Shown piece by piece: positions 726 through 64,000 of a stretch of 64,000 bases of DNA (the stretch's first letter is position 1; each line of letters starts with the position of its first letter). The stretch is taken from positions 36,542,001-36,606,000 of the forward strand of contig NC_088933.1 of the NCBI RefSeq assembly GCF_038396675.1. Reading direction: 5' to 3'. Below the pieces are notes generated by a model that saw nothing but the letters and a program-made list of their open reading frames with translations, searched no databases and had not been told where the DNA came from. Both the position numbers and the translations under genes were made by a program. The stretch comes from Hydra vulgaris. Its lineage: Eukaryota > Cnidaria > Hydrozoa > Anthoathecata > Hydridae.

Positions 726-24062
<23,337 letters not shown>

Positions 24063-26054: not shown

Positions 26055-27235
26055 TCAGAATATCTTCCAAAATATTTCACTTTCATTTATAGACTTTAAT
26101 GCCGGCGCGTCACAATTCCTAAAATTAGCATCACGATATCCTTTTCCAAACCACTTAATGACATAATCCTTTGGATCGAAATGCGTAATTGGTGGACCTA
26201 CTAAAGAAATGAACATTAAACTCGACACAGTTTTTATTAATAAAGAGTTTCGCAAGGAAGATAAGATTATATTCATAGTAGAAAAAGAACGCTCACATTC
26301 AGCTGTTGAAACAATCAAGGTATTTATAGCAGTTCTCAGAGGCTGAAGATCATTAGGGGTTTTATTACAGTCACCAGTGGAAATGTATTCACGAAACCCT
26401 TGGACTGTCGTAATTTCACAAATATTTAAAGTTTTTGCTAATTGTCTAATATCGTTATCTCCAAAGCATGGATCTTGATCTGCAAACCATTGTAGCTTAT
26501 CAAAAATTTGTAAATTTTTTATTAAATTATCGTATTTTTCTTTGTTTGGATCATTTTCTTTGTCTTGTAAAGATTTATGCGCAGCTCTAGTTGTAAACAT
26601 TCTAGAATCAAGATTTTCACTTAGTTTACTAAAAAATTCATTTTGATTAATTTTAGAAACTTTTCCGATCTGTAGTTTGACGCCTTTAAATTCAAACTTT
26701 TCTGCTGCAAGCTGCGTTTGCGAATAATATTCACCTGAATTATTTCTCATTGATTGAAATATATGGTATTTTAAGGTGATAAGCCGATGTGCATCAGGTA
26801 AAGAAGCCTGCCTATCTTGTAATTTTTTAGAAAGATGTTCTAGTTCTATTAAAGCATCTAGCATTAGTCCCATGTTGAGTATGAAATTGATATCACACAA
26901 TTCATTTTTAAGACCTGCATAATGGGCTCTATCTCCTCCATTACGCCTTATATCCAATGAAGATTCATGAAAGCGTTGATACAATGCAGCATAATTATTC
27001 CAAACAGCCATCACAGATCGAACGCTAGACGACACCCATTTAGTGCCTAGAATTCGCCCAATGGAATTTAGTTTTACACTTAAAGCCATAGCAACAGTTT
27101 CCAGCTCTTTTTTGTTTTTAGGAGATGCACTGTAAATGGAATATAATTTATCAAAAAAGCTTTTCATGTGACAAATTGGTAAGATATCGCGCACTACATC
27201 ATTTACTGCTAACTCTAGTGGATGCTTGGCAACGT
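26055..27235 (-). pseudogene. hAT transposase, C-terminal part (KIAA1586-like)
   Basis: Reading down from about 27235 the frame starts LELAVNDVVRDILPICHMKS and runs through TKWVSSSVRSVMAVWNNYAA to the hAT dimerisation block IVSTAECERSFSTMNIILSS and the tail FDPKDYVIKWFGKGYRDA. This resembles hAT transposases related to the domesticated E3 SUMO-ligase KIAA1586. It is open for nearly 400 codons. The upstream amino acids in the 405-codon ORF (LFFFFYFAILLNVAK) come from across the inversion junction and are not native. Confidence 0.85.
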
Positions 27236-27960
27236 TAAGGAGTATGGCGAAATAAAAGAAAAAAAACAACAATCAATGAGGAAAAAGCTTTCAAGCCATA
27301 AACTAACAGTTGCACACGAAAAGGCTTGTAAAATTATTCCTCAGTCCAAAAAAAACACCATAGAGCTGTTTAGTTCAAAAATGCAGATCAATCAGCACGA
27401 AACTACCTACCTCATATTTCGCACTGTTTATCACATTGCAAAAATGAATCGTCCATTTTCTGATTTGAAAGAACTAATATTATTACAGGTAGAAAATGGT
27501 TTAGACATGGGACGTATTTTACAATCTAATCACGCATGCGCTGATATTGTTTATCACATTTCAAATGAAATGCGCACTAAGCTTGTAAAATATATTCTTC
27601 ATAACGGTAATAAAGTAGGGTTTATGATAGACGAATCTACCACGATGAGCAAAAAGTCTGCTCTGTCAATCTGCTTGAGAGTGAACATTCCAGAAATAAA
27701 TATTGTCAATAGTATTTATTTTGATCTTCTCGAATTAACAAATAGAGAAGCCTCGTCTATTGCAAACTCTTTTATATGTGCTTTACACGATTTTGGTTTT
27801 GACAACAATTTTTGTTAAAACCAAAATCGTGTAAAGCACATATAAATTGGGTGTCTTTTGCATGTGATGGTGCTTCTAATATGCTTGGCAAAAAGGCAGG
27901 CGTGGCCCAGTTACTTTTGAATCAGTTTCCTAATTTGATTTTATGGCATTGTAGCAGTCA
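27226..27960 (+). pseudogene. hAT transposase, middle part, inverted
   Basis: The plus strand reads KEYGEIKEKKQQSMRKKLSS, then FMIDESTTMSKKSALSICLR (first catalytic Asp region), a break at the foldback 27771-27846, and then NWVSFACDGASNMLGKKAGV (second Asp region) and NLILWHCSSHR. These are exactly the segments missing between the two minus-strand parts. Inverting about 27236-27965 would place HCSSHR directly before LELAVND, a standard hAT junction. Confidence 0.85.
27771..27846. repeat. 30-bp foldback inside hAT gene
   Basis: 27771-27800 and 27817-27846 are perfect inverted 30-bp arms with a 16-base spacer. The left arm is coding (FICALHDFGF); the right arm is its inverted copy and destroys the frame. 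Confidence 0.95.
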
Positions 27961-36525: not shown

Positions 36526-38269
36526 ATGTCGGAAAATAATGCACGTATGGACAGACATTTAGGTATGAGTTCAATATGTAAAATTGTTTGTAAAATTTGT
36601 AATGCCTCATTTAAATCAACAAGAGGAGTATCAAGGCACATTTGCAAAAAAAATGAAAAAGTAGTTTTACCTTTTCCAAAGATAAAAATAGACTCGCAAA
36701 CAACATTAGCAATTAAACTATGTGGTCAGTTGAGAGTGCCTTCAACGACTGTCAATACAATATTTAGCATTTCCGCCAATATGTTACTTAATATTCGGAA
36801 GTTAATAAAAGAAAAGCATTTTCATACTTTTGACAAGTATTCTTTACAAGTGAATATCCTTAGTAATAAATATCAAAGAGAAAAATTGTTAAATGATTTG
36901 TTTGGCATTTTGAAAATAAATGAAGTTTTGTTTGCTGGTGGCAAAGGTTATAATTTTTTACTATTTGACATTATTAATTTCCTTTTGCAAATTGATGAGT
37001 TTGTACAGCTTTTAAGTAGGAAAGATGCTAAAGCAAATTATCGTACAGATTTCTCTACCCACAAGCCATTAGAATTTTCTCTTTGCTTATATTGTGATGA
37101 TATAATTAGCTAACCCTATTGGCAAACATAGAAAACTTTATAAACTAACTATTTTCTATGTTCAATTTCATTCCTTGCCATCATATATGCGTTCTACGTT
37201 AATATCAGTTTTTCCACTTGCAGTTGTGCCTGTAAAATTATTCTAAAAATAAATTATTTTAAGTCTAATAAAAAAGGGGCTTATTTTCAGTACTTAGAAG
37301 ATTTTATTACTTCCTGTAATCTTTTGAATAACGGTGTTACTTTTAATTCAACGATTGGTTGTGTAAAACTATTTTTAAAATTTGTTATATATTTGGGAGA
37401 TACATTAGCTTCAAATCACATTTGTGGATTTAAAACCAGCTTTGCACCAAATGTATTTAGATGCTGTCGTACATGTCTTACCACAAATATACAAATGACA
37501 TCAATTTACAGAGAAGATATGTGTATATTACGTACTCAAGCAAACCACCAGCAACATATCTTAGATCTCAAGAGTGTGACAAGTAAAAAATCTTAACTCT
37601 ATTGGTCAAGATTTTATGGCATAAATTATGAGTGCACTTTTATTATTCACCGCTTTTCATATTATTGAAAACGCACCACACAATCCCATGCACATTTAGC
37701 TTGAAGAACTAGTGTCCCATGAACTATGTCTTCTGCTGCAATTGCTTATTTGTGAAAAATGTATATACTCATTAGCTGCACTTAATAGTTTTATTATCCA
37801 GTTTCCTTATTCATACTCTGAAGACAGAGATAAGCCCAATATTTGTCCAACTACCTTTGATATTTCAGGGTCTCAAACATCTGCTCAAATTTTGATTCTT
37901 GCTCATATCATTCCACTTTTTATTGGACAAAACAACGATTCCAATGATCCTCATTATGTTAATTTTCTTAGTCTTTTACAAATTCTTCAACTTACTTTGT
38001 CACTGATAACTACATATAGAACTATTTTTGATTTAGAAACTCTTATTGAAAAGCATTACAAATCATTTTCTTTATTGTGGCCAAATAATCTGATACCAAA
38101 ACATCATTTTATACTTCATTTTGTCGGACAAATTCATCGATTTGGTCCACTAAAAAATCAATTTTGTATGACTTTTGAAGCAAAGCACAATAAAATAAAA
38201 AGTGTACATTGGCATAATATCTTCAATGGAACACAATTTCAAACTTCCTTGATGATAATGGTCAACTGA
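36526..38269 (+). pseudogene. Transposase-like gene of CACTG element, broken
   Basis: 36526-37113 (195 codons) starts with a C2H2-type finger (VCKICNASFKSTRGVSRHIC) and ends with KPLEFSLCLYCDDIIS and a stop. The next frame continues NPIGKHRKLYKLTIFYVQFH and RSTLISVFPLAVVPVK; 37324-37596 adds GVTFNSTIGCVKLF, YLGDTLASNHICGFK, FRCCRTC; 37712-38269 adds IPKHHFILHFVGQIHRFGPL and CMTFEAKHN. The blocks ..YxDD..NPLG..HKL.., ..DTLASH..GGFK.., C..C, and PKHHFxxH....FGPL...M.FEAKH occur together in a family of large uncharacterised animal proteins linked to transposons. Stops and shifts break it at least three times. Confidence 0.7.
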
Positions 38270-56070: not shown

Positions 56071-58320
56071 CAAAGTTTCAAGATTTTATCATCAGTGGAT
56101 CCAGTGTCAGGGATAAGATACTGAAGCTCCATAATAAGTACATAAATTTTTATCATCTCAAATCATTGAACTGGAACTCTAGTGATGGCAACTTCTCTAA
56201 AATACAGACAGAGTTTTTAGAGGAGAGTAATACACTCTTTGATATTTCATTTGCAAATTTTGAACAAAAAGTAAATAAGGATCGTTTTCGTTCTGAGAAT
56301 GCTGAAGATGAGGATATTCCGTTCTATCTAGATCAAAAAGGGAGCGAAACAAGTATATTACAAAAGAAATTGATGAAGTATTTCAAAATTCAGTTGAAAA
56401 TAAAATATTAGGCTCAAGAGGATGGAGGAGGCAACAGGTAAAGGTAGAATCACAATGAATGCAGTAAAATCCAATGACCTTGAGGTTTCTTTGCATTTAT
56501 CTGAAAATGAATCTGAATTGGAACCAAGCTTAGATTCTTTAGATGATGAAGATTTACCTAATTGACTCAGTCATTCTACTAAATCTAAGATAATGATAAG
56601 TATAAGTGCTGAAGATCTGGTTGACTGTACTGCTGCAGTTTCCGCCCGATACAGAGTATGTATACGACTACAAACTTCTATAGTAGCTGCTAGTTGCAAT
56701 AAAGCTGGTGTGAATCTAGAAGATATTATTCTATCAAGAAGTACAGTTCATAGAAAAAGATTCCAAAAAATAGAGGCAGTAGAAGATAAACTCAGGCAAG
56801 AAATTATAACTACTCTGAAGGGAAAAAGCTATGTGTTCATTTTGATAGAAAACGGGTGAAACAGATTGAAGAAGATCTGAAAATAACTGTTTCTGTAGAA
56901 AGAATAGCGGTGAGTGTTACATCCCCTGATAGGGATGACACAGATGACGTACTGCTAGGTGTTGTTCAGACAGCAAGTTCCAAAAATAGTGACAAGGCTG
57001 TAGCAATTTTGAATCTGCTAAAATACTTTAACATTGTTGATCAAATATTTGCTGTTTGCTGCGACACTACGGCATCTAATACTAGAATACACTCAGGAGC
57101 TGTTGTTATCCTTAGCTCCATCCTTAAAACTCCACTTTTATGGTTTCTCTGTAGAAGACATATGCTAAAAATATACATCTCACACTTTATGGAGGCTTTG
57201 GACTGGGCCCAAGAAAAGGGCTTTATGTCAAACTCCAGAAAAATGGTATTCAGTCAAGAAAGAGGTGGACAAGATGCTAGACCTAGTTAGGTTTGATTGG
57301 ATTCAGCTTCAGACTGGGTCACCCCTTTATGAAATTGTTAAGAAAGCTCTGAAGTTTGGAAAAGAAGCCCTTGCCTCAAAAACATTTGTCAGGAGTGATT
57401 AGGAAACTATGTGAGCTTTTTGTTTTCTATTTGGGAGGAGAAGTACCTGGATTTTGTTTCCATCAACCTGGAGCCTGCCATGAAGCCAGGTAAAGTATGT
57501 TGAAAAAATAAAACCTTATGGATAAATTATAAAATTTGTGTAAGTATTATAAATAACATATAAATAAAAAATATGATAAATATTAATGGTAACAAAATTT
57601 TAATCTTTAGGTTTATGGCTGATGCTTTATACATTCTTACCTTGAGAATAACAGATAAGATCACCATGATTATGAGCGAAAAGGAAAGAAATATGATAGA
57701 GACAGCGGCATTCTTCACAACTGTCTGGTATGCACCTTGGTTTCTAAAGTCGTACTTGGTTGCAAAATCACCCTCAAATGATCTTGCCGCTTTCAAAAAT
57801 GCATTTAGCATCAAAGATAAATATCCCAATCTTGGTTCAGCATTGGTTGCTAGTATGCAAAGACACAACTGGTACTTGACTGAGCAGTTGGTGCTGCTAT
57901 CTCTGGCTGATAAAGATGTAGAGCAGGAAGTAAAGAAAAAGATGTTGGACAGATTAGTTCAGTATGACGTTCCTGACAAGTTCAAAACTGGAAAACCGTC
58001 ACCCGTCATATCAGTCCGTTGAGCTTTGGGAATCGGTAGGTCCGGAAAGTTTGCTTCTGTTGAAAATTGCTGAAGTAGAACTGCGGAGGAAGGAAAAAGC
58101 CTTGAAGTCATTAGATTTTTTACAAAAATTTGTTAAAAATTTGACTTGCGTTAACGATTGTGCAGAAAGGAATATACGCCTTATTCAGGACTTTGTAGGT
58201 GGATACAAATCTGATATTGTGCAAGAAAATTTAATGCTGGTGGCAAGGGACAATAGAAAGAAGCTTAAAAAGGTTCTTTCTAAATCCCAGTTAAAAATAT
58301 ATATAGTCTATTATTCCTAA
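56071..58320 (+). pseudogene. 3' part of unnamed transposase-like gene
   Basis: Ordered pieces: 56166-56411 (acidic, 81 codons); 56593-56859 with DCTAAVSARYRVCIRLQTSI and DIILSRSTVHRKRFQKI; 56856-57290 with SVTSPDRDDTDDVLLGVVQT, QIFAVCCDTTASNTRIHSGA and LLWFLCRRHMLKIY; 57573-58022 with FMADALYILTLRITDKITMI and TAAFFTTVWYAPWFLKSYLV; 57964-58320 with VNDCAERNIRLIQDFVGGYK. The order of D-rich strand, CDTT-x2-N, C-x2-H and CAERN blocks is like an RNase-H-fold transposase and similar uncharacterised proteins exist in arthropods and cnidarians. I cannot name the family. Small indels and stops make it inactive. Confidence 0.65.
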
Positions 58321-60120: not shown

Positions 60121-60630
60121 TATTTTATTATATTTGTATTTGATCACGGTCGTTTAGACTTTAGAAATAAGTGGAAAGTTATTATACGCAAGCGCAGTAG
60201 AGTTAAAAATAATTTAGAATTTTAATAATGGCTACGGATGCGAAATTTTTTTAAAAACTTATCATTGACAACGAGTAACTTTAATTTTAGATAATTAAAT
60301 AGATTTTTAACTATTTTTTTAAATGAAATTATTGAGAAAATAACTTGCAGCTGTACTAAGTAATGTTTTAAATAAAATACAAGACAACTGAATGTGAATA
60401 AAATCTACTTTCAGCTAAAGCTACTTTTACTTTTTTTGTTTATAATCTTTAAACCTTTTTTAAAAAAATTTTGAGCGTAGAAATTTTAAGATTTTTATTT
60501 ATTCAGCAAGATGAACCTCTTATCTTTTTTGTATTTTTTGTTTATATGAGGATTCAATTTTTTTTGCAGGGTTAAAATAAAATCTTAATCGTTAACTTTT
60601 TGTAACCTGTTGCTACGGTACTCCTTTCCG

Positions 60631-61052
<422 letters not shown>

Positions 61053-61122
<70 letters not shown>

Positions 61123-61148
61123 TACACACACACATATATATATATATA
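61053..61148. repeat. (TA)n with (CA)n core
   Basis: TA repeats, a short ACACACACA run near 61125-61134, then TA again. Confidence 0.95.
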
Positions 61149-61293
61149 AAGAAATAGAGAAAGATATCTCGAAAAGAGAATAAATAAATAGGAATTGGTT
61201 GATAAATATGTATGAATTACAAGGATTTGTAAAAAATAAATTTGTTTATAATTATATATATACAATTTTTTATATAGTCTAATATTAAATAAA

Positions 61294-62046
61294 ATGGAAC
61301 TTCACAACAAAAATATTAAACTCATTTGCTGAGTTTGTGGACAGTTACTTGGTAAAAAGCATTATTTTATAGTAGAAATTCTTAAAGTAAAATTAGAAAA
61401 GCTGTTTTATGTTGAAATGACAGATTTGGAAATTGTCCATGCTCCAAAAATGTGTAAAAAATGTTATTGTACAATGAACAATGTGCTTTCAAGAAAAACA
61501 TCAACTGCCCTTGGTCTCTGTACTAAGTGGAAACCACACTGTGATGACTGTTTTACTTGCCAATCAGTAAAAAAGCTTAGAAAAGGTTTAGTAGTTTCTA
61601 AACAACAATCTAGAAATAAAGCAAGATGTAGTGGCCGCGAAAAAAATGATTCAAAGATGTGGACATTTGCAATGTTCACTACCATAAAAGAAGCAATAAC
61701 CATAATACAAGATGAAGATATAGATATATCAGAGCTAAATAATGAGTTAAATCCACATTTGCAACATTGCTTATGTAATATATGCGGTAAAATTCCAAAG
61801 CAACCTGTAACTTTAAAAAAATGCGAGCATCTTTTCTGCTTTTTTTGTATTGTAGAAAATATTAAGTTTAAGCCAATGAGTAAAGCAATATGTCCTCAAT
61901 GCCAAGAATATTTATTATATGAAGATTCATTAGCAAGTAACAAAACAAATTCTCTCATAAAAATGTTGACTGTTGCATGTATTTCAACACAAAATAAAAG
62001 ATCAAAATATAATTCAAATAAAAATATAAATATCTTTCATGCATAA
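61294..62046 (+). pseudogene. RAG1 N-terminal-region-like protein (zinc/RING), one in-frame TGA
   Basis: ATG 61294 to TAA 62046 is one frame of 250 codons, with a TGA at codon 13 (61330-61332); a downstream ATG at 61417 leaves 209 codons open. In full-frame numbering: C12-x2-C15; H49-x4-C54-x2-C57 (HAPKMCKKCY); W79-x-P-H82-x3-C86-x2-C89 (KWKPHCDDCFTC) with basic VKKLRKG after it; and a C3HC4 RING with C161-x2-C164-x12-C177-x-H179-x2-C182-x2-C185-x14-C200-x2-C203 (HCLCNICGKIPKQPVTLKKC). Vertebrate RAG1 has the same series, CRIC.., HP..FC.NC, W.PH...C..C and SCQIC..DPV...C.H.FC..C, in the N-terminal region, where the RING is a ubiquitin ligase. No DDE core or nonamer-binding domain follows. The TGA is one C-to-T change from CGA. 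It could be a decayed gene, or expressed from the second ATG. Confidence 0.82.
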
Positions 62047-63508
<1,462 letters not shown>

Positions 63509-64000
63509 CCACATCGGAAAAGAGTACCATAGCAACAGGTTACAAAAGTTTAATGATTAAGATTTTCTTTTAACCCTGCAAAAAAAAATTGAATCCTCAT
63601 ATAAGAAAAAAAGATAAAAGGTTCATCTTGCTGAATAAATTTAAATTAAAAAATTTCTACGCTCAAAAATATTTTAAAAAAGGTTTAAATATTGTAAACA
63701 AAAACACTAAAGTTGCTTTAGCTGAAAGTAGATATTATTCACAATCAGAGGTCTTGTATTTTATTTGAAAAATTTCTTCGTACAGCTACAAGTTATTTTC
63801 AAAATAATTTCATGAAAAAACTAGTTAAAACCTGTTTAATTATCTAAAATTGAACAAACTACGCGTTGTCAATGATTAGTTTTTATAACGCTGTTACCGT
63901 AGCCATTTTAAAAAATCTTCAATAAATGTAATTCCACTGCGCATGCGTATAATAACTTTCCTCCTGCAAACGACCGTGTGGTTTATATTTTGTTATATTT

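Follow-up and report, generated by a model that had tools for sequence, protein, structure and literature searches.

How a region resembling the N-terminal part of RAG1 came to stand alone in the genome of Hydra vulgaris is the question raised by a 250-codon frame in the window analyzed here, that is, in the whole stretch of 64,000 nucleotides. The original prediction took this frame for an intronless gene representing an N-terminal module that travels without the transposase core, and regarded its form as relevant to how RAG1 was assembled. The analyses described below indicate that the locus is very probably a dead copy of a non-autonomous, core-deleted family of Chapaev-type transposons of H. 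vulgaris, which carries the RAG1-N/RING frame as a passenger, and that the module looks to travel without the core through secondary loss and not as an ancestor of RAG1.

Re-reading of the frame confirmed its coordinates, its strand and the absence of introns; it is not open as had been claimed, since codon 13 is TGA. The following features were located in it:

61294..62046, + strand: truncated RAG1-N/RING frame, read as the Chapa and RING part of a Chapaev-type transposase, with one internal stop
61330..61332, + strand: in-frame TGA, codon 13, within the first CxxC
61327..61560, + strand: three RAG1-N-type zinc modules (CxxCG, H[PA]xxxCxxC, WxPHxxxCxxC), residues 12-89
61774..61902, + strand: C3HC4 RING, residues 161-203, with KQPVTLKKCEHLFC (Pfam PF00097)
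61996..62046, + strand: abnormal tail of the ORF; likeness to core-bearing relatives ends at about residue 235

At the family level, CRxCG, HPxxxCxxC, WxPHxxxCxxC and the C3HC4 RING follow one another in that order, from which the window copy deviates by the stop in its first CxxC and by HA in place of the usual HP in its second zinc module. The predicted W-x-P-H block with its CxxC is present (W79-x-P-H82 and C86xxC89), and the RING, described as perfect, is indeed complete (Pfam zf-C3HC4, E 9.8e-08, 32.2 bits against a cut-off of 21, with the stop read as X). The codon-13 TGA recurs in one (L009) of the 15 other near copies found in the genome, and the ATG-started open part after it comprises 209 amino acids (61417-62046). 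The zinc-binding segment that directly follows the RING in RAG1 and in the core-bearing relatives is absent from the window copy and from the 15 near copies aligned with it, and the odd tail into which the frame diverges is the same in all 16 of these core-less copies.

Profile searches against the RAG1 N-terminal region and RING bore out the predicted order of modules. The family profile aligned in order to residues 151-376 of mouse RAG1 (E 2e-14), and a profile of the non-RING part alone (A7), made from relatives with the window copy not in it, also matched mouse RAG1 (E 8.7e-14), rather than pointing to TRIM or another RING family with no RAG1 likeness outside the RING; at E 0.1, Pfam detected neither a B-box nor a TRIM domain in the window frame and nine relatives. 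The Pfam family RAG1_imp_bd scored 20.3 bits on the window frame, under its cut-off of 23.3, which was passed by three of the ten proteins scanned (P0013 with 48.6 bits, P0003 with 36.9 and P0007 with 25.7), P0003 being 91% identical to the window frame. On sequence grounds, the zinc and RING residue blocks exceed chance at the family level, and the resemblance to the RAG1 N-terminal region, also outside the RING, is real. In Foldseek searches with a model of the relative P0004, the RAG1 dimerization domain (1rmd) was the best match, as it was for the RING with the region after it; the RING alone matches BRCA1, RING2 and TRAF6 about equally well as RAG1. The homologous proteins found number 12, nine from H. 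vulgaris and three from metagenomes, the two closest showing 96% and 91% identity across 75% of the query, and eight of the 12 are annotated as V(D)J recombination-activating protein 1 or 1-like. No relatives were confirmed in viral contigs, where the arm pattern of the element described below was also searched and none was confirmed, or in bacterial or archaeal genomes, results that have no bearing on animals. Among the 50 matches listed from a viral structure library, RING- and TRAF-type proteins from large DNA viruses predominated.

A separate observation concerns the first zinc module (61294-61500; relatives P0004 and P0038-P0042), which resembles the ZAD (zf-AD) of insect zinc-finger proteins. 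The Foldseek search with the P0004 model returned the ZAD of M1BP (7po9_A) at rank 40, with 65 columns, an rmsd of 1.5 Å and E 1.3e-02. With profile A7, RAG1 was followed by 7po9 (E 0.031, profile positions 6-65) and then by Grauzone 1pzw (E 0.43), also a ZAD, and Pfam zf-AD was detected in two of 40 members (best E 0.0086). These matches are suggestive of a relationship between the first RAG1-N/Chapa zinc module and the ZAD; among the papers accessible, none combined ZAD, RAG1 and zinc finger.

The prediction of a transposon-rich locus was borne out as well, and the ORF itself lies inside an element bounded by terminal inverted repeats (TIRs), with the following parts:

60145..63978, + strand: copy of a non-autonomous, probably Chapaev-type transposon, 3834 bp, with termini CACGGTCGTTT ... 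AAACGACCGTG and with arms and interior as in the dispersed copies
60145..60634, + strand: left terminal inverted repeat, 490 bp, beginning CACGGTCGTTT
63509..63978, - strand: right terminal inverted repeat, 470 bp, ending AAACGACCGTG
60141..60144, no strand: left flank TGAT
63979..63982, no strand: right flank TGGT
62047..62536, no strand: non-coding interior common to the family (94.7-98.0% in all 15 other near copies)
60796..61056, no strand: later MITE-like inverted-repeat insertion of about 260 bp in a (TA)n run

The left and right arms of this element share 407 identities over 463 aligned columns. The 260-bp insertion had no blast match in 19 other loci and was seen only in the window copy, and some 620 bp of (TA)n repeat (62888-63507) lie directly inside the right arm. 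Elsewhere in the window there are remnants of other mobile elements at 6812-7432, 26055-27272 and 36526-37113, comprising a reverse transcriptase (E 5.3e-15), a weak hAT dimerisation match (21.2 bits, cut-off 21.4) and a weak Mutator-like match (22.4 bits, cut-off 26.5). The broken, adjoining frames at 56856-58320 look by eye like a DNA-transposon gene; two pieces of them gave no match in Pfam at E 0.001.

The element belongs to a dispersed family. The window itself lies at G000:C14:36542001-36606000 of the assembly searched. A search of the 911.5-Mb, 15-contig assembly, in which 150 of 547 candidates were scored and 151 matches obtained, so that counts are lower bounds, placed the family at at least 47 loci with at least 80% amino-acid identity, on 13 of the 15 contigs (counted by hand, with neighbouring pieces joined). 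Twenty loci were fetched, of which 16, window included, are near copies, and L029 and L030 were added later. The truncated ORF is common to all 15 other near copies (94.9-98.0% DNA identity), 13 of which have the left arm (92.5-97% identity), 14 the right arm (89-97%) and 12 both; L030 carries the ORF, the interior and the right arm, and L029 the ORF and pieces of arms without the interior. The copies with both termini, 11 in number, span 3.8 to 5.8 kb. When 16 copies were examined for target-site duplications, taking the pair that brackets the element where several pairings were possible, perfect 4-bp duplications were found at nine of these 11 (L010-L014, L019 and L021-L023); the duplication of the window copy is imperfect, with TGAT and TGGT agreeing at three of four positions, and the flanks of L028 are likewise alike at three of four, while in L009 and L015-L018 one terminus is missing or unrecognised. 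Chapaev elements make 4-bp duplications. The CACGGTCGTTT ends together with the perfect 4-bp duplications show a CMC-type trait, whereas 5-bp duplications, which the accessible accounts report for Transib and RAGL elements, were not found in the core-less family. For the CMCT clade, the available part of one source gives 5'-CA..TG-3' termini and short target duplications of 2-5 bp (PMC12730594); a literature search on Chapaev, 4-bp TSD and RAG1 listed one paper, on another superfamily.

No transposase core was detected by tblastn in the window copy or in 17 near copies (E 1e-6 for the first set and 1e-4 for the later set). A core further along the window was rejected, since tblastn of 52 proteins against all 64 kb at E 0.01 matched only the ORF, and among the best 12 matches of a looser scan of 62030-63000 and 60640-61300 none was convincing, the lowest E being 0.011, for a fragment of P0005. 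An origin of the arms from an unrelated element was also rejected, because arms, ORF and interior are common to the near copies and the left end matches those of two core-bearing relatives. The travel of the module without the core, as originally proposed, is upheld, inside a repeated TIR element.

Fusion to a core does occur in full-length relatives, some of them in the same genome; the partner is a RAG1-fold DUF1280 core. At four Hydra loci (L024-L027), the full layout is present as a multi-piece gene, whose first piece holds RAG1-N and RING and whose subsequent pieces hold the core; the protein P0018 aligns to L024 in six pieces. The core-bearing relatives are modelled with a RAG1/Transib fold, a likeness to Transib and RAG-like elements (RAGL, ProtoRAG), from which they differ in that no RAG1-core Pfam family was listed for the nine full-length relatives scanned and DUF1280 was matched instead. 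DNA similarity between the window ORF and L024/L025 ends at base 690 of 753. The left end of the window element aligns clearly with those of L027 (CACGGTCGTTC; score 67 against a maximum of 28 in 500 shuffles) and L024 (CACGGTCATTC; 64 against a maximum of 34 in 500 shuffles), weakly with that of L025 (E 1.7e-04) and not with that of L026; the right end of L027 was not found within the stretch of DNA searched. In a midpoint-rooted tree of 18 N-terminal parts (supports 55-100), the core-less family with the gene models P0004 and P0005 stands beside a clade holding core-bearing Hydra proteins, and further core-bearing proteins fall outside both. P0005, which is close to the window family, runs on into a linker that in P0016 leads towards the core, and the match of P0016 residues 3-48 to the tail of P0005 is the sole sign of a core-bearing copy in the close subfamily of the window, for which none was found at the DNA level. 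Stop-free RAG1-N frames of 347 amino acids are present at G000:C15:7610629 (L024), C15:51064423, C4:24082297 and C10:49437709; three of these loci score identically and a fourth almost so, and the first, L024, carries the core. These loci suggest that a core-bearing Chapaev-type family has recently been active.

The leftover frame itself evolves near-neutrally. Over the 120 pairs among 16 core-less copies, mean pN/pS is 0.97, and divergence is equal in the ORF and in the neighbouring non-coding DNA (0.0309 each), third codon positions diverging least (0.0246), the opposite of the pattern that protein selection produces; over all pairs there is no sign of selection at the protein level. An open frame free of indels is retained in two copies (L013 and L014), and the other 14 are broken: the codon-13 stop interrupts the frame of the window copy and of L009, and the remaining 12 carry different stops or indels. 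A 10-bp deletion is common to five of the 12, which form one clade (support 0.973), so a frame-broken form has multiplied. Given the codon-13 stop and the near-neutral divergence, an intact stand-alone gene was rejected. For the 15 pairs involving the window copy, pN/pS ranges from 0.35 to 1.01, with 14 below 1 and few changes in each, and since two frames are also open, individual lineages may in the past have been under some weak constraint.

In other DNA transposons, truncated transposases can act as repressors or dimer partners, and the truncated RAG1-N/RING protein might likewise be made and act upon the full transposase. Such an activity would agree with the two open frames and the low ratios of the window pairs, with the RAG1 or RAG1-like annotation of eight of the 12 homologous proteins, in Hydra, and with the resemblance of the RING and following region to the RAG1 dimerization domain. 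It is nonetheless quite improbable for an ORF whose mean pN/pS is close to unity, which diverges no more slowly than non-coding DNA, and of which 14 of 16 copies are broken, a broken clade having multiplied; we infer that no protein is used from it. The capture of a TRIM-type or other host RING gene between unrelated inverted repeats would account for the RING alone matching BRCA1, RING2 and TRAF6 about as well as RAG1, but this is refuted by the RAG1 match of the non-RING part and by the arms and ORF moving together in many copies, to which the lack of a B-box or TRIM domain adds, and its probability is negligible.

The locus could also be an ancient stand-alone RAG1-N module, of the type that donated the RAG1 N-terminus, existing as a transposon of its own before fusion to a core. 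In its favour are the core-less element with arms and target duplications and the fact that N-RAG-TP of Aplysia is read so in the available portions of reviews. Four observations speak against it and render it very improbable, namely that core-bearing forms occupy the sister group and more distant groups in the midpoint-rooted tree, that the ORF breaks off in an odd tail where its relatives continue, that the left end is like those of two core-bearing elements, and that the family is young, with about 3% divergence between copies.

Under the preferred reading, a core-deleted Chapaev-type family, the starting point would be a Chapaev-type transposase gene whose first exon encoded the RAG1-N-like zinc modules (Chapa domain) and the RING and whose later exons encoded a RAG1-fold DDE core. 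A deletion would then have cut the gene shortly past the RING, removing the core and keeping the termini. The family is without a core and could not move by itself; for the element, with long arms ending 5'-CACGGTCGTTT, mobilisation in trans would presumably have come from a transposase encoded by core-bearing relatives, among which the mobilising autonomous lineage probably lies. Each insertion would have made a target duplication of 4 bp, and the RAG1-N/RING frame left behind would have been carried along as a drifting passenger. Such mobilisation in trans is suggested by the ends, by the duplications and by the missing core.

Among known systems, the Chapaev transposons with Chapa and RING described in the accessible text of Kapitonov and Koonin (2015; PMC4411706) have the same N-terminal order, Chapa (RAG1-N) and then RING, a DUF1280 core as in the core-bearing Hydra relatives, and CAC..GTG ends alike, whereas the window family is without the core. 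N-RAG-TP of Aplysia californica, likened here by description only and from partial accounts, is a mobile element with a RAG1-N-like coding sequence and no core, as is the Hydra family between its TIRs. Vertebrate RAG1 (PDB 6oem, 21wb, 1rmd) agrees in the order of its zinc modules and RING but keeps its core, whereas the window frame is broken. RAGL elements with N-terminal zinc motifs are described from other animals, and RAGL elements also from cnidarians, in the part of the source available (PMC7204232).

Reviews of 2021 and 2026, in the portions accessible, derive the N-terminal part of RAG1 from the stand-alone N-RAG-TP transposon. In the Hydra family, this arrangement is most simply explained if a transposase that already possessed the layout of RAG1-N, RING and RAG1-fold core lost its core, with little or no selection on the frame left behind; a stand-alone copy is therefore weak evidence for an ancestral stand-alone module. 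The claim that the Hydra form bears on how RAG1 was assembled was not supported, as the relatives are fused, the core-less form lies among them in the midpoint-rooted tree and no selection is seen over all pairs. Core-less RAG1-N transposons (N-RAG-TP, from the partial accounts) and Chapaev elements with Chapa and RING were already known in principle; what is new is this well-documented H. vulgaris family, whose value lies in the direction of change, a recent core loss with the fused form persisting in the same genome. Since Kapitonov and Koonin, in the text available, had in 2015 already placed the joining of Chapa and RING to the core in a common ancestor (PMC4411706), the Hydra result provides a concrete test case for an idea that is not itself new. 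Hydra genes annotated as "V(D)J recombination-activating protein 1-like" can be pieces of Chapaev-type transposons. Whether stand-alone RAG1-N elements in general, Aplysia N-RAG-TP included, are secondarily core-deleted Chapaev-type transposons, with RAG1 having inherited its zinc region and RING together with the core from a Chapaev/Transib-like ancestor, we consider evenly balanced. If so, RAG1 would not have gained its N-terminal zinc region and RING by fusing with an N-RAG-TP-like element, and in the Hydra family one could follow, as a worked example, how a core-less form arises, spreads and decays.
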